Position numbers and translations under genes: made by a program
Notes under the pieces: generated by a model
The model's input: only the letters and a program-made list of their open reading frames with translations
The model's database searches: none
Told to the model about the DNA's origin: nothing
From: Frankiaceae bacterium
Lineage (GTDB): Bacteria > Actinomycetota > Actinomycetes > JADGOV01
DNA length: 46,325 nucleotides
Direction: 5' to 3'
NCBI GenBank assembly: GCA_017882785.1
Contig: JADGOV010000012.1
Location: forward strand, 1 to 46,325
In this document: positions 5,337-18,977 of the stretch, piece after piece
Position numbering within the stretch: position 1 is the stretch's first letter
Layout: each line of letters opens with the position of its first letter

Positions 5337-5439
5337 CGCATGTACGCAGGGCCTTCCCCGGCCACTCTCATTGCTGAGGGGCCGCGGTTGCTGAGGAGCT
5401 CCGAGCCGACGTCGCTCGACCGTGGGAGGCACGCTCAGC
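5337..5439 (+). promoter_or_regulatory. Spacer with a TTGCTGAGG direct repeat before the SDR gene
   Basis: TTGCTGAGG occurs at 5371-5379 and again at 5388-5396, 17 bases apart, upstream of the SDR gene at the left edge of the biosynthetic locus. A regulator site is possible; no known operator is recognised. The SDR ribosome binding site (GGGAGG) lies at the end of this spacer. Confidence 0.25.
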
Positions 5440-6315
5440 ATGCGCTATCTCGTCACCGGCGGTAGCGGGCTGTTGGGCCGCCGACTCGTGCAGCGGCTCG
5501 GCCAGGCGGCTGAGGTAGTCGGCACGTTCTGCTCGGCGCCGGTTGCGGGCTTGCCCCTCGTGCCGCTGAATGTCACCGAGCCGTCCCAGGTGAACGCGCT
5601 GATCGGCCCGGGTGCCTTCGATGTCTGCATCCACACCGCGGCCAACCGGAACCTCGAAGCGTGCGAGAGCAACGTCGGCAGGGTCATGCGGCTCAACGTT
5701 GAGGGCACCCGGTTCGTCGCGGAAGCGTGTCGGCGCGCGGGAACGCGCATGGTCTACATCTCCACCGATCACGTGTTCGACGGAGCACCGGAGGTCGCCT
5801 ACACCGAGGAGGACGATCCCCGACCGATCCAGGTGTACGGCTTCACGAAGCTGGCGGGTGAGTACCAGGCGCAGCGCACCGGCGGGGCGCTCTGCATCCG
5901 CGTGCCGGTACTGCACGGCGTGAGCCAACCGGATCAGCAGGAAACCTTCCCCACGCAGGCGCTGCGCCGACTTCGAGCCGGGCACACGGTCCCTGCGGAC
6001 GATCACCTTATCCGCTACCCGGTTCTCCTCGACGACCTCGTCGATGCCGTGGCCGAACTCATCGCCCAGGACGTCGAGGGCATCGTGCATTTCAGCAGCG
6101 ACCGGGGGGTGACGAAATTCGCCTGGGCCCGCCTCATCGCCGAGACGTTCGGCCTCGACTCCTCCCTCGTCCGCGCTCGCCCCGAGGGCGGTCGGGCGGC
6201 ACGACCGCGCGACAACCGCCTGCGGTCCAACCGGCTCGCTGGGCTCGGCATCCGCCCGCCGACCTCGATCGCCAACGCGACGGTATCGCTGCCGCAGTCA
6301 GCTGCCGGGACCTGA
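5440..6315 (+). CDS. RmlD-like extended SDR (NAD(P)-dependent sugar reductase)
   Basis: I choose ATG 5440 (MRYLVTGGSGLLGRRLVQRL), nine bases after GGGAGG, rather than the GTG at 5422. The 291-residue protein has the Rossmann motif GGSGLLG at the N-terminus, CIHTAANRNLEACESN, ISTDHVFDG, and the catalytic YGFTK (YxxxK). It ends with a C-terminal substrate region like dTDP-4-dehydrorhamnose reductase (RmlD). RmlD relatives reduce 4-keto nucleotide sugars, and MAT2B-like members are close in sequence. No other dTDP-rhamnose genes lie nearby, so its substrate is open. It is followed five bases later by the kinase gene, and the pair converges on the RiPP-like operon. Membership of that locus is inferred from position. 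Confidence 0.75.
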   Translation: MRYLVTGGSGLLGRRLVQRLGQAAEVVGTFCSAPVAGLPLVPLNVTEPSQVNALIGPGAFDVCIHTAANRNLEACESNVGRVMRLNVEGTRFVAEACRRAGTRMVYISTDHVFDGAPEVAYTEEDDPRPIQVYGFTKLAGEYQAQRTGGALCIRVPVLHGVSQPDQQETFPTQALRRLRAGHTVPADDHLIRYPVLLDDLVDAVAELIAQDVEGIVHFSSDRGVTKFAWARLIAETFGLDSSLVRARPEGGRAARPRDNRLRSNRLAGLGIRPPTSIANATVSLPQSAAGT

Positions 6316-6320
6316 AGCCG

Positions 6321-7388
6321 GTGGAGGAGCACCGCGATCCCGGTGATGGCGACCGCGGCGTCGTACGCGACATCCGTTGTGCCGGCGGCATCGTGACCAA
6401 ACGCGCGACGGTCGGGCGGGCGAAGCTCCTGGACGAGGTCGCCTGGCTGTCACGGCTTCCGGCGGACGTGCGCGGCTACTTCCCGCGGGTCCTGGCCACC
6501 CGACTCGGGCCAACCTGGGCCGAGTACGACATGCCGTACTCACCGTGGCCCAACCTCGCCCAGTTGCTCCTCGACGGCCAGCTGTCGGCCGACGATGCGA
6601 CCACCGCCGTCGAGCGGATTCTGTGCATGGCGTTCGACCGCATGTACCGGCGCAATACACGGCCGACTCCAGAGTGCTTCTTCCGGCGGAACTACCTGGA
6701 GAAGGTCGAGCGGCGTATGACCGTCGCGGAGGGAGCGTCCCCGCGCTTGGACCATCTGGTACGCGCGCCCACCCTCATCGTCAATGGCAGGACCGTCGAC
6801 AGTCCGCTGCGCCTGATCCGGCGGATCAGCACCGATGAGCAGTTGCTCGGGCGGCTCGCGGCGCCGCGACTTGGCATGGTCCACGGCGATCTCAAGTTCG
6901 ACAACATCCTCCTCGCGCCCGGCCCACTCGAGGCGTCGAGCTTCCTGCTGCTCGATCCGCGCGGGGCAACCTTCGCCGGTGGGGCGGAGGGGGATTATCT
7001 GGACGACATCGCCAAGCTCCGCACGAGCACCCTCGCGCTCTACGATCTCGTCCGAACCGGCCGCATGGTGGTCCAGGTCAGGGGCACGCGGATCTCAACC
7101 GCGCTCGACCAGGCAGCGTCGCCAACGGCGGGTGTGTTCGCGGCGCTCGACACAGCCCTCATGGGGTGGATGCCGGCCTGGGCCGCCGCCCGCAACGACC
7201 CGCAGTGGCGGCTCCGGCTGAGTTTCCTGACCCCGCTGCTCCTGCTCGCCAACGCGCCGTTTCAGCTGGCGCCGGTCACCGAGCAGACCGAGACCGTTGC
7301 GCTGGCGCTCTTCACGGCCGGCGCGCAGCAGCTACAGGCGGCGACGGACCCGTGGAGCCGGGGCTGGCAGCGGGCTAGCAGCAACTAG
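6321..7388 (+). CDS. Aminoglycoside-phosphotransferase-fold (APH) kinase
   Basis: The 355-residue protein has the eukaryotic-kinase-like fold. It has a catalytic loop MVHGDLKFDNILL (HGDLKFDN at about 188-195, with Asp190 and Asn195) and a metal-binding segment LLLDPRG (Asp212) in place of DFG. A likely nucleotide-binding Lys lies in the early strand segment IVTKRATVGRAK. APH-fold enzymes phosphorylate antibiotics, sugars, choline or homoserine-like substrates. Here it could tailor a sugar-like intermediate or protect the host. The GTG start at 6321 lies five bases after the SDR stop. Its own stop shares the tetranucleotide CTAG (7385-7388) with the stop of the convergent PdxJ-like gene. Confidence 0.7.
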   Translation: MEEHRDPGDGDRGVVRDIRCAGGIVTKRATVGRAKLLDEVAWLSRLPADVRGYFPRVLATRLGPTWAEYDMPYSPWPNLAQLLLDGQLSADDATTAVERILCMAFDRMYRRNTRPTPECFFRRNYLEKVERRMTVAEGASPRLDHLVRAPTLIVNGRTVDSPLRLIRRISTDEQLLGRLAAPRLGMVHGDLKFDNILLAPGPLEASSFLLLDPRGATFAGGAEGDYLDDIAKLRTSTLALYDLVRTGRMVVQVRGTRISTALDQAASPTAGVFAALDTALMGWMPAWAAARNDPQWRLRLSFLTPLLLLANAPFQLAPVTEQTETVALALFTAGAQQLQAATDPWSRGWQRASSN

Positions 7389-8113
7389 CCGACAGCCCGA
7401 AGGTAGTCGGGCAGGATGGCCACCGCCCCGGCAACGACGGCGTCGGCAATGAAGCGGTGGCCGACGGACACCTGATCGAGGTTTACCTGCTCGGTCAACG
7501 TGCGGAGCTGGGTCAGCCCGATGTCGTGGGCAGCGTGCACGGCCGTTCCCTGCCCGCGCGCGACGGCTGCCGCGGCGCGCAGGCGCTCGACCTCGGCGGC
7601 CTCCCGCTCGCCGCCGAAAGTCTCGACGAATCCTCGGCAGTTCAGCTCGACGCTGGTCGCGCCCGCGGCGGCGGCGAGCTCGATGCCCTCGGCAGCCGGA
7701 TCGCAGAACACGGAGACGAGGGTGTCCGGCCGAAGGCGCGCGACGGTGGCGCACAGCCGTTCCTGATCCTCAGCACCCGTCCAACCGCGTTGCGTCGTGC
7801 GGTGGCGGGCTTGGAACGGGGTGACGACGAAGGCGTGCACACTCTGCGCCGCCACGACGAGGTCGACCACCTCGGCGCTAAGGTCGCTACCGACATTCAG
7901 CTGCAGCTGACCGGTCCGCACCTCCTCCATCGCAGCCAGCGCCAGCACATCCTCGGGATGAACGTGGCGATGATCCGGCCACGGGTGGACCAGCACGGCG
8001 CGGCAGCCGCCGGCACACAGCGCCGCGGCGACACCCACCAAGTCGGGGTGTTGGCCGCCGCGCGAGGACCGCAGTAGTGCGATCTTGTTCAGACCGATGC
8101 ACAGTGTGGGCAT
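7385..8113 (-). CDS. Divergent PdxJ-like (pyridoxine 5'-phosphate synthase) homologue
   Basis: The 242-residue protein matches PdxJ along its length. GLNKIALLRSSRG aligns with GVNIDHxATLRxARG, VHPWPDHRHV with VHLREDRRHI, VSVFCDPAAEGIELAAAAGA with SLFIDxxxxQIxxAxxxGA, and QVSVGHRFIADAVVAGA with the phosphate-binding NIGHxxIxxAVxxG strand. PdxJ condenses 1-deoxyxylulose 5-phosphate with 3-amino-2-oxopropyl phosphate. His43, His50, Glu157 and His196 are kept. The catalytic Glu of LxLEMA is Asn73, the Glu of VPEKR is Phe100, and the DH of NIDH is missing. Actinobacteria normally make PLP with PdxS/PdxT, so this is probably a neofunctionalised enzyme acting on related phosphates. It is the last gene of the operon, six bases after the AurF-like gene. 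Confidence 0.75.
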   Translation of the reverse strand: MPTLCIGLNKIALLRSSRGGQHPDLVGVAAALCAGGCRAVLVHPWPDHRHVHPEDVLALAAMEEVRTGQLQLNVGSDLSAEVVDLVVAAQSVHAFVVTPFQARHRTTQRGWTGAEDQERLCATVARLRPDTLVSVFCDPAAEGIELAAAAGATSVELNCRGFVETFGGEREAAEVERLRAAAAVARGQGTAVHAAHDIGLTQLRTLTEQVNLDQVSVGHRFIADAVVAGAVAILPDYLRAVG

Positions 8114-8119
8114 GACTGG

Positions 8120-9121
8120 TCAGGTCAACAGTCCGTGTGCGGCGAACGCCTCGTGGGTCGCGGCGTCCTCCAGCGCCCCGACACCCCGGAAGCTGCGGAT
8201 CGTGGCCCGCGCGGCGGCCGCGATGCGATCGGTGGTCCGCGCCTCAAGGTAGGACTCGTCGAGGACCGCGGCCAGGTGCCTGTCCGGCAGCCCCTCCGCG
8301 CGCAGCGCGGCGGCGACGGCCGACAAGTCGGGTTCGAGGAAGGCGCGCACGAAATCCGGGATGCGGGGGCCGACGAGCTGTCGTTCGCGGGCGTCAACCT
8401 GCGGCCACAGAACCTGAAGGAAGCTGCGGAAATAGGCGTGGTGACGGCCCTCGTCGGCGGCATGGTCGGCCACGAGAGCGCGCAGCGCCGGCGGGAGCCG
8501 CTCGTCACGCGGGATGTCGGTGAGGATCGCCGAGACCAGGGTCTCACTGACCACGGCGAAGACGAGGTCGACGAGTCGCCGGCAGTCCGGGGGCAGGCTG
8601 TGCCGGATCTCGTCCAAGCGCCGCACGAATCGCGGCTGCACGGGAAAGAAGGGCGGGACTGCACTCGCCGTGTTGACCTGGTCGATGAAGTCATGGGAGA
8701 ACTGCGCGTGCCACGCCTCGTCCGTGGTGATGGCGAAGGCGTCGGCCTGCATCCGGGCGGGCACGGTGATGCCGGTCCGACCCAGGGAGATGTCGGTCGT
8801 CACCGGAATGACGGCGACCTGCTCGAGGACCTGGGTGAAGTGCAGGTACTGGTACAGCGACCGCACGAGCAGTCTGTGGACGGCCGACCCACCGCGCTCG
8901 GTGAGGAGCGGGTGCCGGGCGGCAGGGGCCAGCTCCGGCGGGAAGAACAGCACCCGACCGCCGTCCTCGCTGGTCACGCTCCCGTCAGCCAGGACGCGCC
9001 GTGGCTGGGTACGGACGCTGGCCCGGCCGTGCCAGTTGAGGAACCTGGAGTCATACGCCTCAGCCGGCGGACCGGTGGCGCAGCCGGGGACGGTGACGCG
9101 CAGCTCGTTCACCGTAGTCAT
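8120..9121 (-). CDS. AurF-type diiron oxygenase
   Basis: The 333-residue protein carries all seven iron ligands of the AurF (p-aminobenzoate N-oxygenase) family at nearly the same spacing: Glu100 (QVLEQVAV), Glu135 and His138 (TDEAWHA), Glu193 (VVSETLV), and His220, Glu224 and His227 (ADHAADEGRHHAYF). In AurF the ligands are 101/136/139/196/223/227/230. Family members oxidise aryl or alkyl amines to hydroxylamine, nitroso or nitro groups; some hydroxylate C-H bonds. In this operon the amine could come from the class III aminotransferase. The ATG at 9121 follows GAGGCGAGA. It sits 34 bases after the PqqD-like gene. Confidence 0.8.
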   Translation of the reverse strand: MTTVNELRVTVPGCATGPPAEAYDSRFLNWHGRASVRTQPRRVLADGSVTSEDGGRVLFFPPELAPAARHPLLTERGGSAVHRLLVRSLYQYLHFTQVLEQVAVIPVTTDISLGRTGITVPARMQADAFAITTDEAWHAQFSHDFIDQVNTASAVPPFFPVQPRFVRRLDEIRHSLPPDCRRLVDLVFAVVSETLVSAILTDIPRDERLPPALRALVADHAADEGRHHAYFRSFLQVLWPQVDARERQLVGPRIPDFVRAFLEPDLSAVAAALRAEGLPDRHLAAVLDESYLEARTTDRIAAAARATIRSFRGVGALEDAATHEAFAAHGLLT

Positions 9122-9155: not shown

Positions 9156-9458
9156 TCAGTAGGTGAGGATTCCGGCGCGGGTGAGCGTCAGGATGAGGTC
9201 CGCGACGTCGTCGAGCGCGCTCGCCCGGTCGATGTCGTACTCGACGCACAGCGCCCCGGCTAGTTCAGCCACCGACCGCTTCCCGTCCATGAGCTTCCAG
9301 ATGAACGTGGCCGACTCGGAGAGCTCCCGCGGCTCACTCGGGCCGGCAACGAGGGTCTTGCTCCGGTAGTTGCGGACCCGGGAGTCCAGGTGCTTGCGAG
9401 GGATCCTGTCCTGGTCGGGCATGCTGTCCTGGTCGGGCATGTTGTCGAATGTCGTCAC
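9156..9458 (-). CDS. PqqD-like RiPP recognition element (RRE) protein
   Basis: The 100-residue protein has a disordered N-terminus followed by a PqqD/lasso-B1-type winged-helix domain. The signs are LSESATFIWKLMDGKRSVAE, LAGALCVEYDIDRASALDDV and ADLILTLTRAGIL. PqqD domains bind the leader of a ribosomal peptide and present it to modifying enzymes; they have no catalysis of their own. This is the strongest pointer that the 22-residue gene at the operon start is a precursor. The start overlaps the nucleotidyltransferase stop (ATGA). The first codons contain a perfect 18-bp tandem repeat that doubles the peptide unit MPDQDS/R. Confidence 0.85.
   Translation of the reverse strand: MTTFDNMPDQDSMPDQDRIPRKHLDSRVRNYRSKTLVAGPSEPRELSESATFIWKLMDGKRSVAELAGALCVEYDIDRASALDDVADLILTLTRAGILTY
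9406..9441. repeat. Perfect 18-bp tandem duplication inside the PqqD-like gene
   Basis: The unit ctgtcctggtcgggcatg occurs at 9406-9423 and 9424-9441. It is in frame and adds MPDQD(S/R) twice, so each copy also offers an extra in-frame ATG. It lies in the unstructured N-terminal tail and should not disturb the domain. Confidence 0.9.
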
Positions 9459-10237
9459 AGCTGCACCTCACCGGCAATGTGCTGGCAGACCCGCAATACG
9501 TCCTCGACCCACTTCTCCGGGGCGGTCGGGTCGAAGTCACGCATGGTCTCGATCGCCCAGTAGTCCTCGAAGGTGAGTTCGGCCGGCGCGACGTCCTCCA
9601 TCCGGCGGGCCCGCCACTTCGCCTGTTCGTTGAACTCCGCATGGCTGGCGAGCAGCGCCTCCACCGCAGCGCCGAAGGCGTAGCGGGCGGCCAGGACGGC
9701 GCTGTGCAGGTCGCCGGCCTGCACCATGCCGACGGCGTCCTCGGTCAGCAAGTCCAACTCGTAGAGCGCCCGCGAGGCGATCATCGTCTTGACCGCGGCG
9801 TCGTCGAACTGCCGTGCCCGCCGGCTCAGCCACTCGGCACCGGTCACGACGTCGGCGAAGGCGAGCCGCTGCATGAACGCGGTTTCGTGCGTGGTCAGCG
9901 ACTCGGCCCGCGCGCGCCCCGCCTCGAACGACGCCCAGGACACCAGGCCGAGTAGCTCATCGACCTGACTGTCCGTCCAGTATTCGACGTCCCAGCGGCG
10001 GCCTTCGGCGATGAAGGCGTGAATGGGCACGGTACCTGGGGCCACCGACACCGGGCCCGTCTCCCCGTCCCCGCGGTTCCACGGCTCAGGAACGATCACG
10101 TACACGTCGACGTCGCTCGACGGGTTACCCCAGCCGCGGACGAGCGACCCGGCGAGGTAGATCGCCTCCGGCGCGGCGGGCAGCAGCTCGTGCTCCGCGA
10201 GAAGCTCGAGGCAACGATGCGGCGTGACGACTGTCAT
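9455..10237 (-). CDS. Minimal nucleotidyltransferase (pol-beta fold)
   Basis: The 260-residue protein has the NTase signature LAGSLVRGWGNPSSDVDVYV: Gly30-Ser31 with Asp42 and Asp44 as the metal-binding DxD. A likely third acidic residue lies in RWDVEYW (Asp83 or Glu85). The C-terminal half is helical, like aminoglycoside nucleotidyltransferases (ANT) and DUF4111 proteins. Such enzymes transfer AMP to hydroxyl groups of small molecules. Related proteins of unclear role occur in some lasso-peptide clusters. Here it could activate an intermediate or act in self-protection. It overlaps both neighbours by ATGA (10234-10237 and 9455-9458), so its translation is coupled. Confidence 0.75.
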   Translation of the reverse strand: MTVVTPHRCLELLAEHELLPAAPEAIYLAGSLVRGWGNPSSDVDVYVIVPEPWNRGDGETGPVSVAPGTVPIHAFIAEGRRWDVEYWTDSQVDELLGLVSWASFEAGRARAESLTTHETAFMQRLAFADVVTGAEWLSRRARQFDDAAVKTMIASRALYELDLLTEDAVGMVQAGDLHSAVLAARYAFGAAVEALLASHAEFNEQAKWRARRMEDVAPAELTFEDYWAIETMRDFDPTAPEKWVEDVLRVCQHIAGEVQL

Positions 10238-12474
10238 GAGAACGCTCCAAGGTGGGCACGGTGGGCGGCCGGGACGGCCGCCGGGCTGGTCAGGAGGAGG
10301 TGGCGATCGAGTGCTTCTTCCAGGAGCGCACCGACGCTGTCGTGGCTGGTGTTACTGAGGGCGAAGACCTCGGCCAGACTCCGGCGGCCGGTGATGGCGC
10401 GGAGGAAGGCGCACCACTCGGAGTCCTCCGTGGCGTCGATCACGAACTCCAACTGTCCGTCCACCGCGAGGTACCAGGTCTCCGACTCCCCGGCGGGGTG
10501 GACGAGCAGCACGTCCTCGGCGAAGTCGAGCACCGCTTCCGGCTGAAGCCGGGGAGCGGGCCGCAGCAGACGCTGCATGTCAGCGCGGTCCCGCGACCAG
10601 TCCTCGATGGTCAATGCCGGAGGAAGCTCGCGGCGGGGCGTTTCGACGTGGGCTGCCGGCAGGTCACGCGTCATGGCTTCGAGCAGCCCGAGGTTGATCA
10701 ACCGCAGCAGGAACTCGACGCCGCCGGGTTCCGGCTGCCGCTGAAGTCGGGACAACAGGTCACGCACCCCGCGCGGATCCAGGGCGTCGACCGCAACCGG
10801 TGCGCTGAGCGCCTCCTCGACGAGCGCCGCGCCGTCACGGGCGAGCATCCGGACGAACGTGCGGTGGGTGAACTCGGCCCCCGCGCCGTGGTAGAAGGGC
10901 ACCTTGGCGCGTTGCGCGACCTCGTGGGGCAGGAGGTCGCGCACCGCGCGGCGGAGGATCCCCTTGTCCCAGAGGAGGCGCGCCCGTCGGGCGGGCGGGA
11001 TCGTCGCGAGGAGTTCGATGATGCGGTGGTCGAGGAAGGGGACCCGGGCCTCGACGCCGTTTCCGGCCGCCGTACGGTCCTCATGCCAGCAGTTGTACTG
11101 CTGGATGTCGCGATACTTCCATGCGACGAATTCCGGGTAGCGGCGCCCGTCATCTCCTCCCGTTCGCCCCGCCAGGAAGCCGTCGGTGAGGAGGGGGACG
11201 TCGTGATGACGCCACCACGGAGCCAGGTCGGGGCGCTGGCTCAGCCGGCGCTGGCGAGCGAACCCGGCGATCGAGGACTCGAAGCCCTCCCATCCGGCGC
11301 CGCCGGAGAGTTGGGCCGAGTAGCCGCCATTGAACTCGTCGCTCGCCTGTCCCAGCAGCATGCCCCGCAGTTCCGGTCGCCGCACCTTGGCGAAGCGGTA
11401 CAGCTCGTACTTGTAGTACTGCTCCGGGCCGCACATCGGTGTTTCGAGGAGCCACAGCAGCCGCTTCCACTCCTCGACATCGGGCACCCGGTCGGCATCG
11501 AAGAGGAGCTGGTGGTTGGGCAGCTGTAAGGCGGAGGCGACGAGATGCGCGTACTCGGCGTCGCCATTGGCGAACGTGCTCCCGTTGAGGACGGTGAAGG
11601 TGTGCAGGCCGCCGATTCTGGCGGCCAGCGCGGCCACGGCCGCGGAGTCGACACCTCCACTGAGGAAGAGCCCGACCTCGGCGTCGGCTGTGGCGCAGTC
11701 GGCGACGGATTCCGACAGCAGATCGCGGTAGCGCTGCACGAAGTCGGCGTCGCTCATCGAACTGGCGCCCTCGAAGGACGGCAGCTGCCAGTACCGGTGC
11801 TGCCGGCGTGCTCCGGTGGCCAGGTCGATGGTCAGGATCGTGCCGGCCGGAACGACCTCGACCCCGCGGAACCAGGACGCCACCGGCTTACGGGTGAACT
11901 CCGGGGCCGCATTGAGGCACTGGTCGGTCAGCGCGGCGTCCCAGTCGAGGGCACGCGGGCAGCGGGGATCGGCGAAGAGGGCCTTGATCTCTGAGGCGAC
12001 GGTGACGCCGTCCGCGTGGCCAGCGACATAGAGGGGCTTGATGCCAAACCTGTCCCGCGCGAGGACGAGACGGTTGCGGCGGCGGTCCCAGAGGATGATG
12101 GCGAACATGCCGTGGACCTTGTCAAGGAACGACAGCCCGTCACGCGCGTAGAGGTGCGCGAGCACCTCACAGTCGGAGCGGGTCCGCCACGGGGTGTCCG
12201 GCCCCAGCGCTGCCCGCAGCTCGCGGTGGTTGTACACCTCGCCGTTCGCGACGAGCACAACCGAGCCGCCGCCGGCCGTCAGCGGCTGGTCGCCGCCGAG
12301 TGGGTCGACTAGAGCGAGGCGGCGGAAGACGAGACCGACAGGGCCGTCCCGAAAGAGCTGCTCGCCGTCAGGGCCGCGGTGGGCGACGGCTCGGCTGAGC
12401 GCGGCAAGCACGTCGTCGCTGCGCTGGTCCAGTGGAGCCCCACCGAATCGCGCCGTGCCGGCGATGCCACACAT
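10234..12474 (-). CDS. AsnB-type glutamine-dependent amidotransferase with extra C-terminal domain
   Basis: Starting at ATG 12474 the product begins MCGIAGTARFGG, with Cys2 as the Ntn nucleophile. The glutaminase residues look complete (FRRLALVDP, VANGEVYNH, RTRSDCEVLAHLY). The synthetase half has the PP-loop LFLSGGVDSAAVAAL. AsnB converts a carboxylate to an amide through an acyl-adenylate; lasso C proteins are relatives that close a ring. At 746 residues it is about 130 longer than usual. The extra tail (VLLVHPAGESETWYLAVDGQ, then WCAFLRAITGRRSLAEVFAL and SVGALLEEALDRHLLL) looks like a second small winged-helix domain. A 10-bp duplication upstream makes the start uncertain: GTG 12480 would bury the Cys behind Met-Ile-Met. 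Confidence 0.85.
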   Translation of the reverse strand: MCGIAGTARFGGAPLDQRSDDVLAALSRAVAHRGPDGEQLFRDGPVGLVFRRLALVDPLGGDQPLTAGGGSVVLVANGEVYNHRELRAALGPDTPWRTRSDCEVLAHLYARDGLSFLDKVHGMFAIILWDRRRNRLVLARDRFGIKPLYVAGHADGVTVASEIKALFADPRCPRALDWDAALTDQCLNAAPEFTRKPVASWFRGVEVVPAGTILTIDLATGARRQHRYWQLPSFEGASSMSDADFVQRYRDLLSESVADCATADAEVGLFLSGGVDSAAVAALAARIGGLHTFTVLNGSTFANGDAEYAHLVASALQLPNHQLLFDADRVPDVEEWKRLLWLLETPMCGPEQYYKYELYRFAKVRRPELRGMLLGQASDEFNGGYSAQLSGGAGWEGFESSIAGFARQRRLSQRPDLAPWWRHHDVPLLTDGFLAGRTGGDDGRRYPEFVAWKYRDIQQYNCWHEDRTAAGNGVEARVPFLDHRIIELLATIPPARRARLLWDKGILRRAVRDLLPHEVAQRAKVPFYHGAGAEFTHRTFVRMLARDGAALVEEALSAPVAVDALDPRGVRDLLSRLQRQPEPGGVEFLLRLINLGLLEAMTRDLPAAHVETPRRELPPALTIEDWSRDRADMQRLLRPAPRLQPEAVLDFAEDVLLVHPAGESETWYLAVDGQLEFVIDATEDSEWCAFLRAITGRRSLAEVFALSNTSHDSVGALLEEALDRHLLLTSPAAVPAAHRAHLGAFS

Positions 12475-12490
12475 GATCACACATGATCAC
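12471..12490. repeat. 10-bp tandem duplication at the amidotransferase start
   Basis: The decamer acatgatcac is present twice (12471-12480 and 12481-12490). It duplicates the start region so that the GAGG motif (12492-12495) is 7 bases from an out-of-frame ATG at 12484, 11 from an in-frame GTG at 12480 and 17 from the ATG at 12474 that gives the MCGIAG N-terminus. Confidence 0.9.
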
Positions 12491-13809
12491 ACCTCTTCCA
12501 GGTCGGGGACGGGCTTCCCGTTCGGGGACGGGGTTCGGTGTCGAGCCGGCCCGATCGGGCGCGACTCGGCCGTGAGGGTGCGGGTGTGCCGCAACGGCGA
12601 GAGCAGGATCGGTACCGGCGCGAGCAGGAAGACGGCCCCCACCACCCAGAGCGCTTCGCGGTTGCCGAGCTCCTCACCGAGTGCTCCCGCGATCACGGCG
12701 CCGACCGGCAGGACGCCCCAGGACACGAAGCGGACGGTCGCGGTGACCCGGCCGAGCAGCTGCGGAGGGGTCACCGACTGGCGGTAGCTGCGGGCAAGGA
12801 CGCTGAAGACGACCGTGCTGGCGGAGATGCCCGCCGTACCGGCGGCGAAGAACAGCAAGCCCGGACCGTCCACAGTCAGCGGGACCAGCAGCACGAGGAG
12901 AGGGCCGGCGGTCGCCGCGAGAAACAGCGCACCGACCGAGCCGAGCCGGGCGCTCAGCCACCCGACGGATGCCGCGCCAGCGATGCCACCGAGTCCCAGG
13001 CCACCGAGCAACACGCCGGCCATGCCCGGGGAAACCCCCACCGTCCGGACCAGGAAGACGACGACCAGCGCTTCCAGGGCGGCTCCGGCGAAGTTGAGGA
13101 CAGCAGCGGAAAGGGTGAGTGGCCCGATCACCGGGTGGCGGCGGACGAACCGCAGGCCGGCCATGATCTGGGAAGGGAGACCGGCCGCCGAGATGCGCGG
13201 CGGCGGTTGCTCATCGCGGCGGATGCCCAGCACGCACGCCACGGACACGGCGTAGCTGCCGACGTCGGCGAGCAGGGCCACCGGGGCGCCGAGCGCTTGG
13301 ATGAGTATCCCGCCGAGAGCCGGCCCGCCGACCTGCGCGACGGACTCACTGCCCTGCAGCCGACTGTTGGCCCGGAGCAGGTCGGCAGCTGCGATGACCG
13401 ACGGCAGATAGGCCTGGAAGGCGACGTCGAAGTACACGCTGGCGGTGCCGACGAGGAGCGCCACGATGATCAGGTGCGCCAGGGAGAGCGTGCCGAACGC
13501 CCAGGCGAGGGGGATGGACAGGAGCGCGAGGCCTCGGGCGGCGTCCGTGGCCAGGATCAGTGGCCGCCGCCGGACACGGTCCACCTGGGCTCCGGAGGGC
13601 AGCCCGAAGACCAACCAGGCGACGTAGCCGGCCGCGGTGACGAGTCCGACCTGGAACGTGGTGGCATCCAGGACGGTCAACGCGACCAGGGGCAGGGCAA
13701 TGCTGGAGACAGCCGTGCCGCACGCACTGACCGTCTGGGCGCCCCAGAGCAGCGCGAAGTCCCGCCGGGCGTCCGCCGAGGCCCGATGCCGGGCTGGCGC
13801 GGATGTCAC
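12487..13809 (-). CDS. MFS exporter of the biosynthetic locus
   Basis: I start at GTG 13809 (VTSAPARHRASADARRDFAL), which follows GGGAGGCGGG. The longer open frame overlaps the phosphatase gene and is not protein-like. The 440-residue protein has about 12 hydrophobic segments and begins LLWGAQTVSACGTAVSSIAL, with the loop FGLPSGAQVDRVRRRPLILA typical of the MFS enterobactin-exporter-like/DHA3 group. A role in export of the locus product is the likely reason for its place in mid-operon. The gap to the phosphatase stop is four bases, and its own stop lies 12 bases before the AsnB-type ATG. Confidence 0.85.
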   Translation of the reverse strand: MTSAPARHRASADARRDFALLWGAQTVSACGTAVSSIALPLVALTVLDATTFQVGLVTAAGYVAWLVFGLPSGAQVDRVRRRPLILATDAARGLALLSIPLAWAFGTLSLAHLIIVALLVGTASVYFDVAFQAYLPSVIAAADLLRANSRLQGSESVAQVGGPALGGILIQALGAPVALLADVGSYAVSVACVLGIRRDEQPPPRISAAGLPSQIMAGLRFVRRHPVIGPLTLSAAVLNFAGAALEALVVVFLVRTVGVSPGMAGVLLGGLGLGGIAGAASVGWLSARLGSVGALFLAATAGPLLVLLVPLTVDGPGLLFFAAGTAGISASTVVFSVLARSYRQSVTPPQLLGRVTATVRFVSWGVLPVGAVIAGALGEELGNREALWVVGAVFLLAPVPILLSPLRHTRTLTAESRPIGPARHRTPSPNGKPVPDLEEV

Positions 13810-13813
13810 GTTG

Positions 13814-14620
13814 TCACCCGCCTCCCGCCGGCCCCAGCACTTCCCGCAGCGCCGTGACAAGCAGCGCCGGAGCCGCCACGACCCAGTCGTTCTCCTCGCC
13901 CTTCGGCACGGCCACCGACAGCCCAGCCTCGCTGGCGACCAGCGCTCCCGCCGCGTAGTCGTAGGGCGCCAGCCCCGTCTCGCAGTACGCGTCGAGCTTC
14001 CCGGCGGCCGCCGAGCACAGGTCGATCGCGGCCGAGCCCGAGATGCGGACGTCGGCGACCCATGGCAGGAGGCGGGCGATGGCTGCGACCTGCCGGGCGC
14101 GAGCCTCACGTGGATAGCAGAAGCCAGTGCCGATAACGGCCTGAGCCAGGACCTCCGTCTGCGAGCCGTGGATGCGGCCTCCGTTGGCCCAGGCACCGCA
14201 CCCGCTGGCCGCGCTGTAGGTGACGTCCAAGGCCGGCGCGTGCACGACGCCCACCAGCGGCGTCCCGCGGGACTCCGCGGCGATGGACACGGCCCACTGC
14301 GGGAGCCCGTGGAGGAAGTTGAGAGTGCCGTCCAGCGGATCCACGATCCAGCGCAGGCCGGAGGATCCACCTATGCTCGCCAACTCCTCCCCCAGCATCC
14401 CGTCGTGCGGACGCTCGGCGAGCAGGAGTGAGCGGATCAGCGACTCGCTGGCCAGGTCCGCATCGGTGACGAAGTCGGTCTCGGACGTCTTCGCCCCAAC
14501 CGGCGTCGCCGTACCCCACCTCCGCAGCAACTCCTCCCCGGCCGCAATTGCCACGCCGGCCGCAAGCTCGGCGATGCGTTCCTGATCGGCGAGCCGGACT
14601 CCGCCGTCGTGCAGGGTCAC
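13814..14620 (-). CDS. Inositol-monophosphatase-family phosphatase
   Basis: From GTG 14620 (VTLHDGGVRLADQERIAELA), overlapping the upstream PfkB stop as GTGA, the protein has 268 residues, the standard length. Family motifs are present: TDFVTDADLASESLIRSLLL, LGEELAS (metal-binding Glu), WIVDPLDGTLNFLHGLPQWA (DPLDGT metal site) and LAPYDYAAGALVASEAG, where the usual WDxAAG is YDYAAG. IMPase-family enzymes release phosphate from inositol, histidinol, fructose-1,6-bisphosphate or PAP, depending on subfamily. Together with the two kinases upstream it suggests a phosphorylated intermediate that is later dephosphorylated. Confidence 0.85.
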   Translation of the reverse strand: MTLHDGGVRLADQERIAELAAGVAIAAGEELLRRWGTATPVGAKTSETDFVTDADLASESLIRSLLLAERPHDGMLGEELASIGGSSGLRWIVDPLDGTLNFLHGLPQWAVSIAAESRGTPLVGVVHAPALDVTYSAASGCGAWANGGRIHGSQTEVLAQAVIGTGFCYPREARARQVAAIARLLPWVADVRISGSAAIDLCSAAAGKLDAYCETGLAPYDYAAGALVASEAGLSVAVPKGEENDWVVAAPALLVTALREVLGPAGGG

Positions 14621-15549
14621 GAGAGCCCGCCGCCGTTGGCGAGTGCGCACGCTGCCCCGGCCCGATCGGGGGGGAGCCTCGGACCCGCTACGCCACACTT
14701 GAGCGCGGCGAGAACAGTCCCGAACTGCAGCCGCGCCGCGAAGTCAGCACCGTTGACGAGTCCGGCGACGTACCCGGCGTGGAAAGCGTCTCCCGCCCCG
14801 GTCGAGTCCACGACCGCGCACTGTCGGCCAGGGACACGCGCAGGTGCGTCAGTCCCGTCGACGCCGACGGCCCCGTCGGCTCCCAGCGTGGCGACGACAG
14901 CCCGCGGCCCTGTGCCCTGCGCTGCGCGTAGCACGCGCAGCGGCTCCGTTTCACCCGTCAGGGTTCGCAGTACCTCCAGAGGTGCGATGAGGTCGCTCAC
15001 CCGGGAGAGGACGGGCAGGGTGCACTCGGACACCTCCTCCAGGTCCGCGACCACCGGCAGTCCCCGGGCCCGCCCGAGGTCGGCGGCTGCCGCCGCCGCG
15101 GATCCCTCGTGATTGTCGAGGTAGACCAGGCTGGCACCGGCCACGAGTTCCGGCGTGATCGTCTCAGCGGTCAGGTGGAGCCGCTTGTCCTTGTACATGA
15201 CGATGGAACGGCTGCCGGTCAGTGAGTCCACGAGGATGGCGGCCCGATGGGCCGGGCAACCGGGCACCGAGATGGACCCGGTCAGGCTCATCCCCACGTC
15301 TTCTAGCGAACGACGGGACAACGCGCTGTCCTCGTCGTCGCCGAACGCGCCGACGTACTCGACGGGAATTCCGAGAATGGCAAGCCCGTGGGCGACGTTC
15401 GCCGCCTGTCCGCCTGCGTACACGGCAAGGGACTCCGCCTGGCTCTTGCGGTCGGGGCTTATCGTGCCAGGCATCCGGAAAACGAGATCCACGGTGTTGT
15501 TGCCGATGACCAGAACCCGCCGTTGCCGGTCAAGAGTGCTTTCCTTCAC
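14617..15549 (-). CDS. PfkB-family sugar kinase
   Basis: The 310-residue protein has the ribokinase/PfkB layout. VLVIGNNTVDLVFRMPG comes first, then the substrate loop YAGGQAANVAHGLAILGIPV at about 44-63. Near the C-terminus the signature VDSTGAGDAFHAGYVAGL has the catalytic Asp of TGAGDAF. These kinases phosphorylate furanose sugars, adenosine, inosine or related polyols with ATP. It begins with ATG 15549, overlapping the P-loop kinase stop (ATGA), and ends in a GTGA overlap with the phosphatase. It may supply the phosphate ester that a PdxJ-type enzyme needs, though this is inference. Confidence 0.85.
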   Translation of the reverse strand: MKESTLDRQRRVLVIGNNTVDLVFRMPGTISPDRKSQAESLAVYAGGQAANVAHGLAILGIPVEYVGAFGDDEDSALSRRSLEDVGMSLTGSISVPGCPAHRAAILVDSLTGSRSIVMYKDKRLHLTAETITPELVAGASLVYLDNHEGSAAAAAADLGRARGLPVVADLEEVSECTLPVLSRVSDLIAPLEVLRTLTGETEPLRVLRAAQGTGPRAVVATLGADGAVGVDGTDAPARVPGRQCAVVDSTGAGDAFHAGYVAGLVNGADFAARLQFGTVLAALKCGVAGPRLPPDRAGAACALANGGGLS

Positions 15550-16166
15550 GACGCGACGGCAGCCTGGTCGAGAAGCCCGCAGTAACGCAGGATCTGCCGC
15601 GACACCTCCTCGACCGAGCAGTCCGTTGTGTCGAGGATGAGCCAGTCCTCCTCCGCGGGCAGCAGAGTGCTCAGGAAGGACTCATAGTCCTGATGCAGGC
15701 CGGGGTTGGCCCGCAGGTACCGGTCACGCGGCGATGTCGCGGCTCGCCGCTCCGCCCGCTGCGCCTTGGTGGCGGCCGTTGAGGTAAGCAGGACGTTGTG
15801 CCCGAACGGCCGGTGCGCCTCGAAAACGTACTCCCCCGGCATGATCTGTTCACCGGGGTAGAAGAACGCGTTCCGGCCGACCTGGGTCAGCCAGTGCCGG
15901 TCCTGGACCCGGTAGTCGTCGGGAGGCGTCAGCATCGACAGGTCGGCGACGAGCGCCGCGGAGTAGTAGTAGTCGCGCGTCCGCATGTCGTCGTACTTCG
16001 CAGCCTCGTTCTCGAGGAACTCCGTCAACGGGCTCGGCTGCACGTAGCAGCGTCCGAGGCTGGCCGGTCGCGCCAATTCGTTGACGAGTTGCGTCAGCCG
16101 GCGGGCGACGGTTGTCTTCCCGACGAAGTCGACGCCCTCGATGAGAACGCCGTCAATGGGCTCCAT
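15546..16166 (-). CDS. P-loop kinase (thymidylate-kinase-like)
   Basis: The 206-residue protein opens with DGVLIEGVDFVGKTTVARRL, a Walker A loop (GVDFVGKT, residues 11-18) in the style of dTMP kinases. It has a DRHWLTQ segment where dTMP kinases have the DR(Y/H) substrate motif, and a basic lid-like segment TKAQRAERRAATSPRDRYLR. The C-terminal half diverges from true Tmk, so the substrate is probably not dTMP. Similar orphan kinases occur in antibiotic clusters. The ATG at 16166 lies 31 bases after the dehydrogenase stop. Its TGA overlaps the PfkB start. Confidence 0.65.
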   Translation of the reverse strand: MEPIDGVLIEGVDFVGKTTVARRLTQLVNELARPASLGRCYVQPSPLTEFLENEAAKYDDMRTRDYYYSAALVADLSMLTPPDDYRVQDRHWLTQVGRNAFFYPGEQIMPGEYVFEAHRPFGHNVLLTSTAATKAQRAERRAATSPRDRYLRANPGLHQDYESFLSTLLPAEEDWLILDTTDCSVEEVSRQILRYCGLLDQAAVAS

Positions 16167-16197: not shown

Positions 16198-17238
16198 CTA
16201 CTCTGCGGACACCCTGACGATCACCTTCAGCGCCGCGGCATTGGGGGAATACGCCTTCTGGCGCAGATCGCAGCCGAGAAGGCTCAGTGCAGCCGGGACG
16301 TCCTCGAGCGGAACAACGTGCGAGATGAGGCTCGCCGCCGGAATCTGGCCGGAGGCCAGGAGGCTCCGGGCATCATCGAAGGTGCCGAGGGAATCGATCG
16401 ACCCGATGAGGGAGATGCTCCGGTCCGCCAGGAGGCCGAGGTCGATCTCCGCTCGGCGGGTACGGAGCGCGACGAGCAGCACCTGACTGCCGGCGGCCAT
16501 GAACGGAAGGAGCGAGGCGTCGAAGTGCCCGCTCGTGTCCACGAGGATGTCGAAGTCGCCGCCTCCTTCCGCGGTCGCATCCGCCACCGATGCCCGGATC
16601 ACCCAGCCGTGGGGTGCCAGGACCTTCTCGGCGAGGGCTCCTCGATCGGCGGCCGGCTCGATGGCTGTCCCGCGTACGCCGCGCATCCCCAGGGCGAGGG
16701 CGTACAGCAGGCCGACAGGCCCCAGGCCCAGCACCATGCAGGTCGCGGCCGGCCGCACGATGAGTTGGTTGACCCCGGTCAGCACACAGCCCAACGGCTC
16801 GGTCAACGCCCCCTCTTCATAGCTCAGCTCGGGCGGCAGCGGGTGCAGGAAGCGTTCGCTGGTCACGTAGTACTCGGCAAGCGTGCCGTCGCTGCTCACC
16901 CCGGCTTCGGTGCCATCCTTCAGTGCGCAGTGGTTAGTCCGTCCCGTCCGGCAGAACCGACACGTGCCGCAGAAGAAGGTGGGGTTGATGACCACACGGT
17001 CGCCGGCGTGGAAGGAGCGCACGGCGGCGCCGGTCTGCACGACGACCCCGGTGGCCTCATGACCGAGCACCACCGGCGGACGGCTGGCGTCGTAGACATC
17101 CCTGACGATCCCGACGTCAGTGCCGCAGATGCCGCATGCCATGACCCGTACGAGGCAGTCAGTGGGACTGCTGAGCGTCGGCACCGGGCGATCGAGGACG
17201 TCCAGCTGCCAGGGCCCGCTATAGACCAGCGCTCGCAT
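16198..17238 (-). CDS. Zinc-dependent medium-chain alcohol dehydrogenase
   Basis: The 346-residue protein is a full-length MDR enzyme. It has the catalytic-zinc motif MACGICGTDVGIV with downstream LGHEATGVV, the four-Cys structural zinc lobe NPTFFCGTCRFCRTGRTNHC, and a Rossmann segment MVLGLGPVGLLYALALGMRG. Close functional classes are sorbitol/threonine dehydrogenases and the 2-deoxy-scyllo-inosamine dehydrogenases of aminoglycoside pathways. It would oxidise a secondary alcohol to a ketone, a natural partner of the aminotransferase just upstream, whose last 20 bases overlap this start. In the PdxJ context such a step would mirror PdxA chemistry; that is inference. Confidence 0.85.
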   Translation of the reverse strand: MRALVYSGPWQLDVLDRPVPTLSSPTDCLVRVMACGICGTDVGIVRDVYDASRPPVVLGHEATGVVVQTGAAVRSFHAGDRVVINPTFFCGTCRFCRTGRTNHCALKDGTEAGVSSDGTLAEYYVTSERFLHPLPPELSYEEGALTEPLGCVLTGVNQLIVRPAATCMVLGLGPVGLLYALALGMRGVRGTAIEPAADRGALAEKVLAPHGWVIRASVADATAEGGGDFDILVDTSGHFDASLLPFMAAGSQVLLVALRTRRAEIDLGLLADRSISLIGSIDSLGTFDDARSLLASGQIPAASLISHVVPLEDVPAALSLLGCDLRQKAYSPNAAALKVIVRVSAE

Positions 17239-18643
17239 GCTGTGTTCCTTCCACGTCTCGCACGCTTTCTACTTCTCGCACACTCGCGTCACACACACTG
17301 GCGCCCAGCCGATCGACGATCTCCTCCAGGTCGCTCTCGGTCGCGATGAGCGCCGGGCGAACCTTGAGGATGTGGCCGCGGCCGTATTCCGAGGAGCGGG
17401 TGATCAGGTGGTGCCGATCGCGGGCGATGCCCACCACGGCGCGCGCCGTCTCCGGGTCGGGCCTCCCGGCAGCGTCGACGATCTCGACTCCCCACATCAT
17501 GCCGACGCCGCGCACCTGCCCCACCCGCGGCTGCCGTTGGGACAAGGAGGACAGGAGCCCCCCCAGATAGGCGCCGCGCAACCGGACGCCGGCCAGGAAG
17601 TCCCTCGCGCCGACAACGTCCAGCGTCGCTTGCGCTGCCGCGAGGCCCAGGAGGTTGCCGCCACCGGTGAAGGAGTGGTCCGAAGTCTGCAGCACGTCAA
17701 GTTCCGACCGCATGAGGACTGCCCCGATAGGCACGCCCACTCCGCCCAGCCCCTTGGCCAGCACGATGATGTCCGGCCGAATGTCGAAGCGTTCGCTGGC
17801 GAGGAAGTAGCCGGTCCGGCCCACTCCCGTTTGCACCTCGTCCGCGATGAGAAGGATGCCGAGGTCGTCACACACCCGCCGCAGCGCACGGAAGTAGCCT
17901 TTCGGCGGCACGATGTTGCCGCCGTTGCCGAGCACCGGCTCGACGATCAGGCAGGCGGTCGAACCGCGACCGGCCTGCGCCGCGATATCGCTGATGCGGC
18001 GGGCGCAGAGCAACTCACATGAGGGATAGGTCTGGCCGTAGAAGCACGACGCGCAATTGGGCTCCGGCACGCGCAGAATGCCCCCCGAATTCTGCAGCGG
18101 GAAGCCCTCCCGGCGCCACGCCGGCCCCGACATACTCGTGGTCAGTGCGGTCTGCCCATGATGTCCGTGGAAGAGCGTGATGACGTCGGACTTACCTGTG
18201 GCCTTCTGCGCGATCTTGACGGCGCACTCCACTGCGGTCGACCCCGTGGCGTCCCGAATCCACCCCGCCCCCATCTGCGGTGGGGCCAACGCGAGGAGGC
18301 GATCGAGGAGGCTCTGCGCATACGGGCGGGCGAGATCGGAGCTGACGTGGCTCATCAGGCTGGCTTGCTGCTGCACCGCGGCGACCACGTGGGGATGGTT
18401 GTACCCGAGCGGGAGATTGAAGGTCCCGGAGACTGCATCGAGATACTCCGAGCCGTCCGCACAATGCAGACGCAAGCCGTTGCCTCTGGTCACCAGCGGT
18501 ATGGCCGGCATGGTGTCCCCGGACAACGGCGCACGACTGTCCGGGAGCCTTCTGCCGTGCTGGCGTCGCCGACCCGCGGCCACGTCGGCCTCGACGGGTC
18601 GGCTGAGAGCAACAGCCGGATGAATCATCGCGGGCTCAGCCAC
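17219..18643 (-). CDS. Class III PLP-dependent aminotransferase
   Basis: I start at GTG 18643, eight bases after GGAGGAC. The 474-residue enzyme has all fold-type I class III marks: YLDAVSGTFNLPLGYNHPHV, LFHGHHGQTALTT, LLIADEVQTGVGRTGYF and the Schiff-base Lys in IIVLAKGLGGVGVPIG. It has the cysteine-bearing insert EPNCASCFYGQTYPSCELLC seen in some bacterial members. Such enzymes move an amino group between omega-amines or keto-polyols and 2-oxo acids. Sitting directly after the peptide gene and overlapping the dehydrogenase, it probably aminates the ketone that enzyme makes. Daptide pathways also pair such an aminotransferase with a dehydrogenase, but their substrate is a C-terminal Thr, which is absent here. 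Confidence 0.9.
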   Translation of the reverse strand: MAEPAMIHPAVALSRPVEADVAAGRRRQHGRRLPDSRAPLSGDTMPAIPLVTRGNGLRLHCADGSEYLDAVSGTFNLPLGYNHPHVVAAVQQQASLMSHVSSDLARPYAQSLLDRLLALAPPQMGAGWIRDATGSTAVECAVKIAQKATGKSDVITLFHGHHGQTALTTSMSGPAWRREGFPLQNSGGILRVPEPNCASCFYGQTYPSCELLCARRISDIAAQAGRGSTACLIVEPVLGNGGNIVPPKGYFRALRRVCDDLGILLIADEVQTGVGRTGYFLASERFDIRPDIIVLAKGLGGVGVPIGAVLMRSELDVLQTSDHSFTGGGNLLGLAAAQATLDVVGARDFLAGVRLRGAYLGGLLSSLSQRQPRVGQVRGVGMMWGVEIVDAAGRPDPETARAVVGIARDRHHLITRSSEYGRGHILKVRPALIATESDLEEIVDRLGASVCDASVREVESVRDVEGTQHASAGL

Positions 18644-18691: not shown

Positions 18692-18720
18692 GGGCCGTGC
18701 TCCCGGTCGGAGCACGGCCC
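18692..18720 (-). terminator. Perfect 12-bp hairpin between precursor and aminotransferase
   Basis: gggccgtgctcc (18692-18703) and ggagcacggccc (18709-18720) are exact complements around a 5-base loop. It starts nine bases after the precursor stop and ends about 50 bases before the next start. There is no U-run, so it could be a partial terminator or an mRNA-stabilising processing hairpin. Either would raise precursor dosage over the enzymes, a common arrangement in RiPP operons. Confidence 0.75.
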
Positions 18721-18728
18721 CCGAGCCA

Positions 18729-18797
18729 TCAGACCTTGAGCCCCAGGACGGCGCCAAAGCTGACCTTCGTGGCCTCCGGCTTGGTGTACTTCTTCAT
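18729..18797 (-). CDS. Putative RiPP-like precursor peptide, 22 aa
   Basis: An ATG at 18797 preceded by GGGAGGAGG at 8-base spacing, the strongest Shine-Dalgarno sequence in the locus, opens a 22-codon frame ending with TGA at 18729. The peptide starts MKKYTKPEATK and ends FGAVLGLKV. Tyr4 and Pro7 form a YxxP motif, matching the leader motif that lasso B1/PqqD domains bind. There is no Cys, Ser/Thr-rich tail or Asp ring residue; the only side-chain carboxylate is Glu8. If lasso leader numbering is applied (Tyr at -17), only the last Lys-Val would be core. The size matches PqqA (about 23 residues). It is followed by a hairpin and then the enzyme genes. Its function as substrate or scaffold is inferred. 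Confidence 0.75.
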   Translation of the reverse strand: MKKYTKPEATKVSFGAVLGLKV

Positions 18798-18977
18798 GGT
18801 TGTCACCTCCTCCCGCGTCGACGTTCAATCTGAGCGCTCGCGGTGGCGGTGATGGCCAATCGCCCATCACTCATCACCGATCCCCCCGGCCGAGGTCGGC
18901 TCGGTCGAAGGATTCGAGCGAAGACTCAGACGTCAGCAGGAGGCCGTGGGGGCTCGGGGAGATACACCAGAGACCGG
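18798..18977 (-). promoter_or_regulatory. Upstream region of the RiPP-like operon
   Basis: This spacer separates the precursor from a pseudogene patch and must hold the operon promoter, since no upstream gene on this strand is intact. Read leftwards it contains the partial repeat GGTGATGAGTGATGGGCG near 18860-18880 and the very strong ribosome binding site next to 18798. A TTGGCC (about 18855-18860) and a CAGATT about 20 bases on are weak -35/-10 candidates. No regulator gene lies in the locus. Confidence 0.35.

Follow-up and report, generated by a model that had tools for sequence, protein, structure and literature searches.

Few metal-binding groups of natural inhibitors are as strong as hydroxamates. 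In the trichostatin A/benzohydroxamate module, TsnB7-TsnB9(-TsnB6), an AurF-type amidooxygenase and an AsnB-type hydroxyamidotransferase are encoded in one cluster and the acceptor is a small carboxylic acid; benzohydroxamic acid has been made in E. coli with SaAmOx, SaHAT and SaAmOx-AS (PMC13418202). An AsnB-like and AurF-like pair without the TsnB6 helper (ActI/ActJ, MatA/MatC) is the proposed maker of the hydroxamate in actinonin and matlystatin (PMC5719088), which follow an acyl-CoA/NRPS-PKS route with no ribosomal peptide. Asparagine synthetase-like enzymes such as PesC and TsrC act on peptide C-termini (PMC13060819); in the nitrilobacillin (PesC), TsrC and ScdTA systems the C-terminal carboxylate (of a ribosomal peptide for PesC) becomes a nitrile or amide. 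Among ribosomal systems, pearlins grow on PEARL scaffolds (TglA, AmmA), carriers whose C-terminus is built on with residues added from tRNA and then cut off. Lasso leaders with a B1-type RRE bear a YxxP motif and are served by an AsnB superfamily enzyme, and PqqA and MftA are very short precursors with a PqqD-type partner. No hydroxamate RiPP and no cluster joining AurF, asparagine synthetase and PqqD proteins was found in a literature search whose coverage lay largely outside subscription journals.

The window analyzed here is a stretch of 46,325 nucleotides from a Frankiaceae bacterium, whose 3.2 Mb genome has no close relative within the genome set. A 22-codon open reading frame on its minus strand (18797-18729; ATG at 18797, TGA at 18731-18729) encodes MKKYTKPEATKVSFGAVLGLKV. 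The Shine-Dalgarno sequence GGAGGAGGTG (18804-18813, approximate bounds, minus strand) spans the stretch from 16 to 7 nt ahead of the ATG. Behind the gene lies a hairpin of 29 nt with a perfect 12-bp stem (18692-18720, minus strand); attenuated read-through or mRNA stability is proposed as its function. The peptide gene is the first of an enzyme operon, in which genes on the same strand follow from 18643 to 7385 with short gaps or overlaps. An earlier sequence-only reading had described a precursor-like gene with a strong Shine-Dalgarno sequence, a hairpin and enzyme genes behind it, and all three were borne out at exact coordinates, on the minus strand.

Conservation of the reading frame was surveyed with the diiron oxygenase, not the peptide, as query. 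The search of 85,000 species genomes gave 66 loci, and three plasmid loci were added by tblastn of the peptide consensus against plasmids, for a total of 70 loci including the window; because they were retrieved with the peptide consensus, the plasmid loci do not count as independent support for the peptide. A close AsnB relative is present in 38 of the 70 loci and the 22-mer in 35 of these 38 (the exceptions are L033, L040 and L073), and it occurs in 0 of the 32 loci without a close AsnB, a distribution beyond chance. The oxygenase-seeded survey alone placed the same peptide gene in 31 actinobacterial loci besides the window. All 41 copies of the 70-locus survey are exactly 22 residues long. 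In two loci without a nearby AsnB, a whole-genome search located an AsnB at another site of the same contig, accompanied by a peptide of its own, MKKYSKPAAKPVTQGTVLRETA (22 residues) and MKKYLKPRPVDHKNVLRGPS (20 residues), bringing the count to 43 copies in 37 loci, 42 of them of 22 codons and one of 20. The shorter peptide (L099; G754, Paractinoplanes ferrugineus) lacks two residues between Pro7 and Val12 and keeps the spacing from Val12 to the end; the AsnB gene beside it carries one in-frame TGA.

The leader consensus, residues 1-18, is M-K/R-K-Y-x-K-P-x-x-K-x-V-x4-V-L. Among copies recognized as reading frames starting M[KRTQ][KRQ]Y.[KS]P, Tyr4 and Pro7 are invariant and Lys6 nearly so, Val12 and Val17-Leu18 are strongly conserved, and residues 19-22 vary freely. 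Pairs of copies agree on average at 66% of nucleotides in codons 1-18, at 41% in codons 19-22 and at 29% in the 66 nt past the stop. Conservation had been anticipated for Tyr4, Pro7 and the C-terminal LKV; the first two are fixed, and LKV belongs to the variable part. A synonymous bias had also been anticipated, on which pooled pN/pS, being saturated, gives no decision (codons 2-18 have a value of 0.78 and codons 19-22 one of 1.71, against 0.74 in one wrong frame). The sequence-only reading allowed almost no core, Lys21-Val22 alone; the core is indeed very short but is better read as residues 19-22 (GLKV in the window, after a leader of residues 1-18), since variation begins directly after the conserved V-L. 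Asp and Glu are absent from 19 of the 41 copies (14 loci), among them those of L029 and L045. Tandem copies occur in L026 and L043 (three each) and in L027 and L059 (two each). Hairpins follow many copies, with a mean longest stem of 10.4 bp compared with 6.0 bp in shuffles, and in three of the four arrays (L026, L043, L027) only the last copy is followed by one. The median gap from peptide to asnB is 103 nt, the window (6.3 kb) and L059 (4.9 kb) being exceptions.

The 22-residue reading frame is thus a real gene of an overlooked, widespread actinobacterial precursor family. As in RiPP precursors, a conserved leader and a variable core are encoded beside an RRE protein and modifying enzymes, which agrees with the earlier description of the peptide as precursor-like; the YxxP motif noted in its leader is kept, and a PqqD/B1-type RRE protein is encoded in the cluster. 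Annotation had been expected to miss so short a gene, and the plasmid records, although annotated, have no feature at any of the three peptide copies.

Four proteins make up the conserved core of the clusters. Profile searches of the 35 peptide loci detected AsnB in 35, the nucleotidyltransferase in 34 and PqqD in 34; the diiron oxygenase is found in all, trivially so where the oxygenase was the query. The window AsnB (10234-12474, minus strand; 746 residues) has an intact Cys2 and SGGVDS loop, and Cys2, the glutamine pocket and the SGG(V/I)DS loop are present in every aligned relative except L073, whose AsnB lacks the Cys2 start and whose locus also lacks the peptide. The last 100 residues of AsnB resemble the PqqD family (hhalign 90%, E 1.4e-6; 0.3% for the remainder, used as control), placing a PqqD-like domain at about residues 650-735. 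By profile, the closest solved relative is the hydroxyamidotransferase 7YLZ (E 3e-71), with asparagine synthetase B 1CT9 also matched (E 4e-66), and the AlphaFold model (mean pLDDT 86.9) retrieved TsnB9, the trichostatin hydroxyamidotransferase, first in Foldseek (E 5e-30). Identity to SaHAT is only 29%, so that sequence cannot separate hydroxyamidotransfer from plain amidation.

The AurF-family diiron oxygenase (8120-9121, minus strand) is 35% identical over near-full length to the amidooxygenase SaAmOx of S. angustmyceticus (WP_313772112), which is encoded on a plasmid with SaHAT (WP_313772113) two genes off and SaAmOx-AS also adjoining. Residues E100, E135, H138, E193, H220, E224 and H227 are invariant in the family and align with the metal site of AurF. 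The protein is therefore an AurF-type diiron enzyme with a complete metal site and homology to an amidooxygenase. In a midpoint-rooted oxygenase tree, SaAmOx groups with L077 and L079, outside the peptide-linked rows. The separate PqqD-family RRE protein (9156-9458, minus strand; PF05402, E 2.8e-14) has PqqD 3G2B and the lasso B1 proteins TfuB1 and TbiB1 as its nearest solved relatives by profile. The nucleotidyltransferase (9455-10237, minus strand) is modeled with the ANT(4')/kanamycin nucleotidyltransferase fold (mean pLDDT 94.6), and its catalytic GS...SDxD is invariant across relatives.

Compared with the TsnB module, the acceptor proposed here is the C-terminus of a ribosomal peptide, the AsnB has an extra PqqD-like domain, and a PqqD protein and an adenylyltransferase are added. 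A TsnB6-type helper was not detected in any peptide locus, and a search of the window's genome, run without a positive control, gave no match. The absence of a TsnB6 homologue is shared with actinonin and matlystatin, as is the proposed hydroxamate. MatC was sought in L082 (Actinomadura atramentaria, the matlystatin organism according to PMC5719088), and no AsnB match was found in its 20 kb, so that this locus did not serve as an anchor.

A LanM-type enzyme adjoins the peptide cluster in L026, L031, L037, L045, L088 and L126, and its kinase/lyase and LanC zinc motifs are intact in all five that were aligned. Thr21 is found in all six LanM loci and in 2 of the remaining 31 (Fisher p 1.2e-5, with relatedness ignored; the sixth LanM locus came to light once the pattern was already apparent). 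Peptides of the LanM loci contain no Cys; together with the constant Thr21, this suggests dehydration without lanthionine formation. The association points to residue 21 as the putative site of modification within the very short core.

On balance, the evidence leans towards a pathway in which the leader guides conversion of the peptide C-terminus into a hydroxamic acid, followed by release of a short peptidyl hydroxamate, a chemistry that we infer from the enzymes encoded. The PqqD protein and the C-terminal domain of AsnB would bind the leader so that the C-terminus comes to lie in the synthetase site, where AsnB would adenylate the C-terminal carboxylate. If AsnB acts on the peptide, this carboxylate is the sole target in the 19 copies devoid of Asp and Glu, and a C-terminus that is the AsnB target would account for the fixed length of the peptide despite its free C-terminal tetrad. 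The glutaminase half might supply hydroxylamine, drawn from a glutamine that the diiron enzyme has N-hydroxylated, in the manner of trichostatin and benzohydroxamate, or ammonia, in which case the diiron enzyme would then N-hydroxylate the amide as proposed for actinonin and matlystatin. The adenylyltransferase may cap or activate a hydroxyl, either the newly formed N-OH or a different one. Locus-specific enzymes may tailor the core or attach a second building block, and LanM, where present, is expected to dehydrate Thr21. Cleavage behind Leu18 or residue 19, followed by export, would yield a tri- or tetrapeptide hydroxamate, which for the window would be (G)LKV-NHOH, further modified. Several observations tell against the pathway: the low identity of AsnB to SaHAT, the missing TsnB6-type helper, the position of SaAmOx in the oxygenase tree and the three loci that have a close AsnB but show no 22-mer. 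In addition, no protease was assigned in the window, and only part of the relatives have a candidate (Rce1-like, M28). An MFS exporter (12487-13810, minus strand, start approximate) is encoded in the window, and similar exporters are found in 20 of the 35 peptide loci.

A more speculative and rather improbable extension is that the nucleotidyltransferase adenylylates the hydroxamate oxygen and the O-AMP hydroxamate then rearranges enzymatically in Lossen fashion, the peptidyl isocyanate so formed being trapped by water or an accessory-made amine so that the peptide ends as a chain-shortened amine or a urea; in a weaker version, the AMP-capped hydroxamate would be a self-protected pro-inhibitor. 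Overall, the family most likely represents a new type of RiPP, one that draws on the known hydroxamate module. If so, it would be a widespread actinobacterial RiPP family with at least 37 loci, some of them plasmid-borne, a precursor of only 22 codons and a product predicted to be of a ribosomal kind not yet described, carrying a hydroxamate at the C-terminal end. As the four-residue core is free to vary, the warhead module would then be programmable by DNA. Furthermore, the peptide and its partners provide a searchable signature for a cluster class overlooked by gene callers.

Other chemistries at the C-terminus were weighed against the hydroxamate pathway. AsnB could instead amidate the C-terminus with ammonia from glutamine, possibly on to a nitrile as PesC does, with the diiron enzyme oxidizing another site (an amine to a hydroxylamine or nitro group, or a side chain). 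The intact glutaminase of AsnB and the accessory aminotransferase of the window fit this scheme, and AurF itself makes nitro groups. Precedent is offered by PesC and TsrC (PMC13060819), but the nearest characterized relatives of AsnB and the oxygenase are a hydroxamate pair, and an amide or nitrile end point is considered rather unlikely. The PesC, TsrC and ScdTA systems contain, to our knowledge, no diiron enzyme of the window's type and no ANT-fold partner. Less likely again is that the locus-specific genes (in the window the aminotransferase, inosose-dehydrogenase-like protein, kinases, phosphatase and PdxJ-like enzyme) produce an amine for AsnB to couple to the C-terminus, the adduct then being tailored and cut off. 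Amine-forming enzymes are indeed encoded in the window, and accessory genes differ strongly between loci around a constant core; yet this scheme leaves the universal diiron enzyme without a role, and the conserved Cys2 and glutamine pocket suggest glutamine (or Glu-hydroxamate) as nitrogen donor. Like the pearlin carriers, the peptide would be built on at its C-terminus and cut, but its residues are genetically encoded, and no PEARL (LanB-dehydratase-like) enzyme is among the ten cluster proteins of the window, LanM being present in six relatives. The scaffold with a C-terminal adduct suggested by the sequence-only reading came closest among its options: modification of the C-terminus is likely, and -NHOH installed by a trichostatin-type module is the most probable adduct.

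Readings that would make the peptide a lasso precursor, a cofactor precursor or a regulatory element fare worse. The YxxP leader, a PqqD protein related to lasso B1 and an AsnB that also matches the lasso cyclase model, below cut-off, would suit a B1-like RRE and an AsnB-like cyclase forming an isopeptide ring. A macrolactam is nevertheless impossible here: four variable residues are too few for ring and tail, and no acid is conserved where Asp or Glu would stand (ring position 7-9), 19 copies having none at all. The B2 protease family PF13471 was not found in the window's genome, the window AsnB has the glutaminase active-site Cys2, and the lasso reading, scarcely credible, was rejected on core length, the missing acid and the missing protease. 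PqqA and MftA share the small size and the PqqD partner, and their last residues become a small redox cofactor by radical SAM chemistry; a product of this type is unsupported, and the reading was rejected as very improbable, because a Pfam scan of ten cluster proteins of the window found no radical SAM enzyme and the C-terminal residues vary across relatives. The earlier analogy to PqqA/MftA thus holds for size and C-terminal modification but not for product chemistry. An attenuator, in which the reading frame is a regulatory leader and not a substrate, would explain a short frame and a hairpin ahead of asnB at the median gap. Such a role sits poorly with tandem copies that have a hairpin only behind the last in three of four arrays, with a conserved RRE-type motif, with the distance to asnB in the window and L059, and with the link between LanM and Thr21; on these grounds it too was rejected, with very little probability left to it.

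The remaining operon genes of the window, all on the minus strand, are accessory. They encode a class III aminotransferase (17219-18643; PF00202, E 4.9e-76), a zinc-dependent dehydrogenase (16198-17238) whose nearest NCBIfam model, scyllo-inosose 3-dehydrogenase, falls below cut-off, a P-loop kinase of distant dTMP-kinase type (15546-16166, weak Pfam/NCBIfam evidence), a PfkB-family sugar kinase (14617-15549, Pfam) and an inositol-monophosphatase-family phosphatase (13814-14698, Pfam). The operon ends with a PdxJ-like enzyme of the pyridoxine-5'-phosphate synthase family (7385-8113), probably a vitamin-B6-type synthase recruited to secondary metabolism; the genome that carries it also has PdxS. 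A convergent pair on the plus strand (5422-7388, by eye), an SDR (5422-6315) and an aminoglycoside-phosphotransferase-like kinase (6321-7388), is possibly part of the cluster.

Copies of central-metabolism genes lie near several peptide clusters: enolase (by eye) in L058, L060 and L086, pyruvate-kinase-like proteins in L029, L034, L035, L042 and L049, and pgi (glucose-6-phosphate isomerase), aconitase and an isocitrate lyase/PEP mutase in L088. Hydroxamates mimic enolates, so that these copies could be resistance genes; they are possibly self-resistance or building-block enzymes. In L053, L056, L061-L064, L068 and L071, the recurrent families c7 and c12 occur with NDK-like and HAD proteins; neither c7 nor c12 has a Pfam match, and c12 also has no PDB sequence match. 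The AurF-like proteins of L065 (about 9743-10915) and L085 (9920-10954) share a Cys-rich segment, MCGTVGLF-x-GCAAAAFCP, before the oxygenase domain. Finally, a second, more distant AurF-type oxygenase lies in or near the cluster, with a class III aminotransferase nearby, in L064 and on the contigs shared by L053/L080 and L056/L087.
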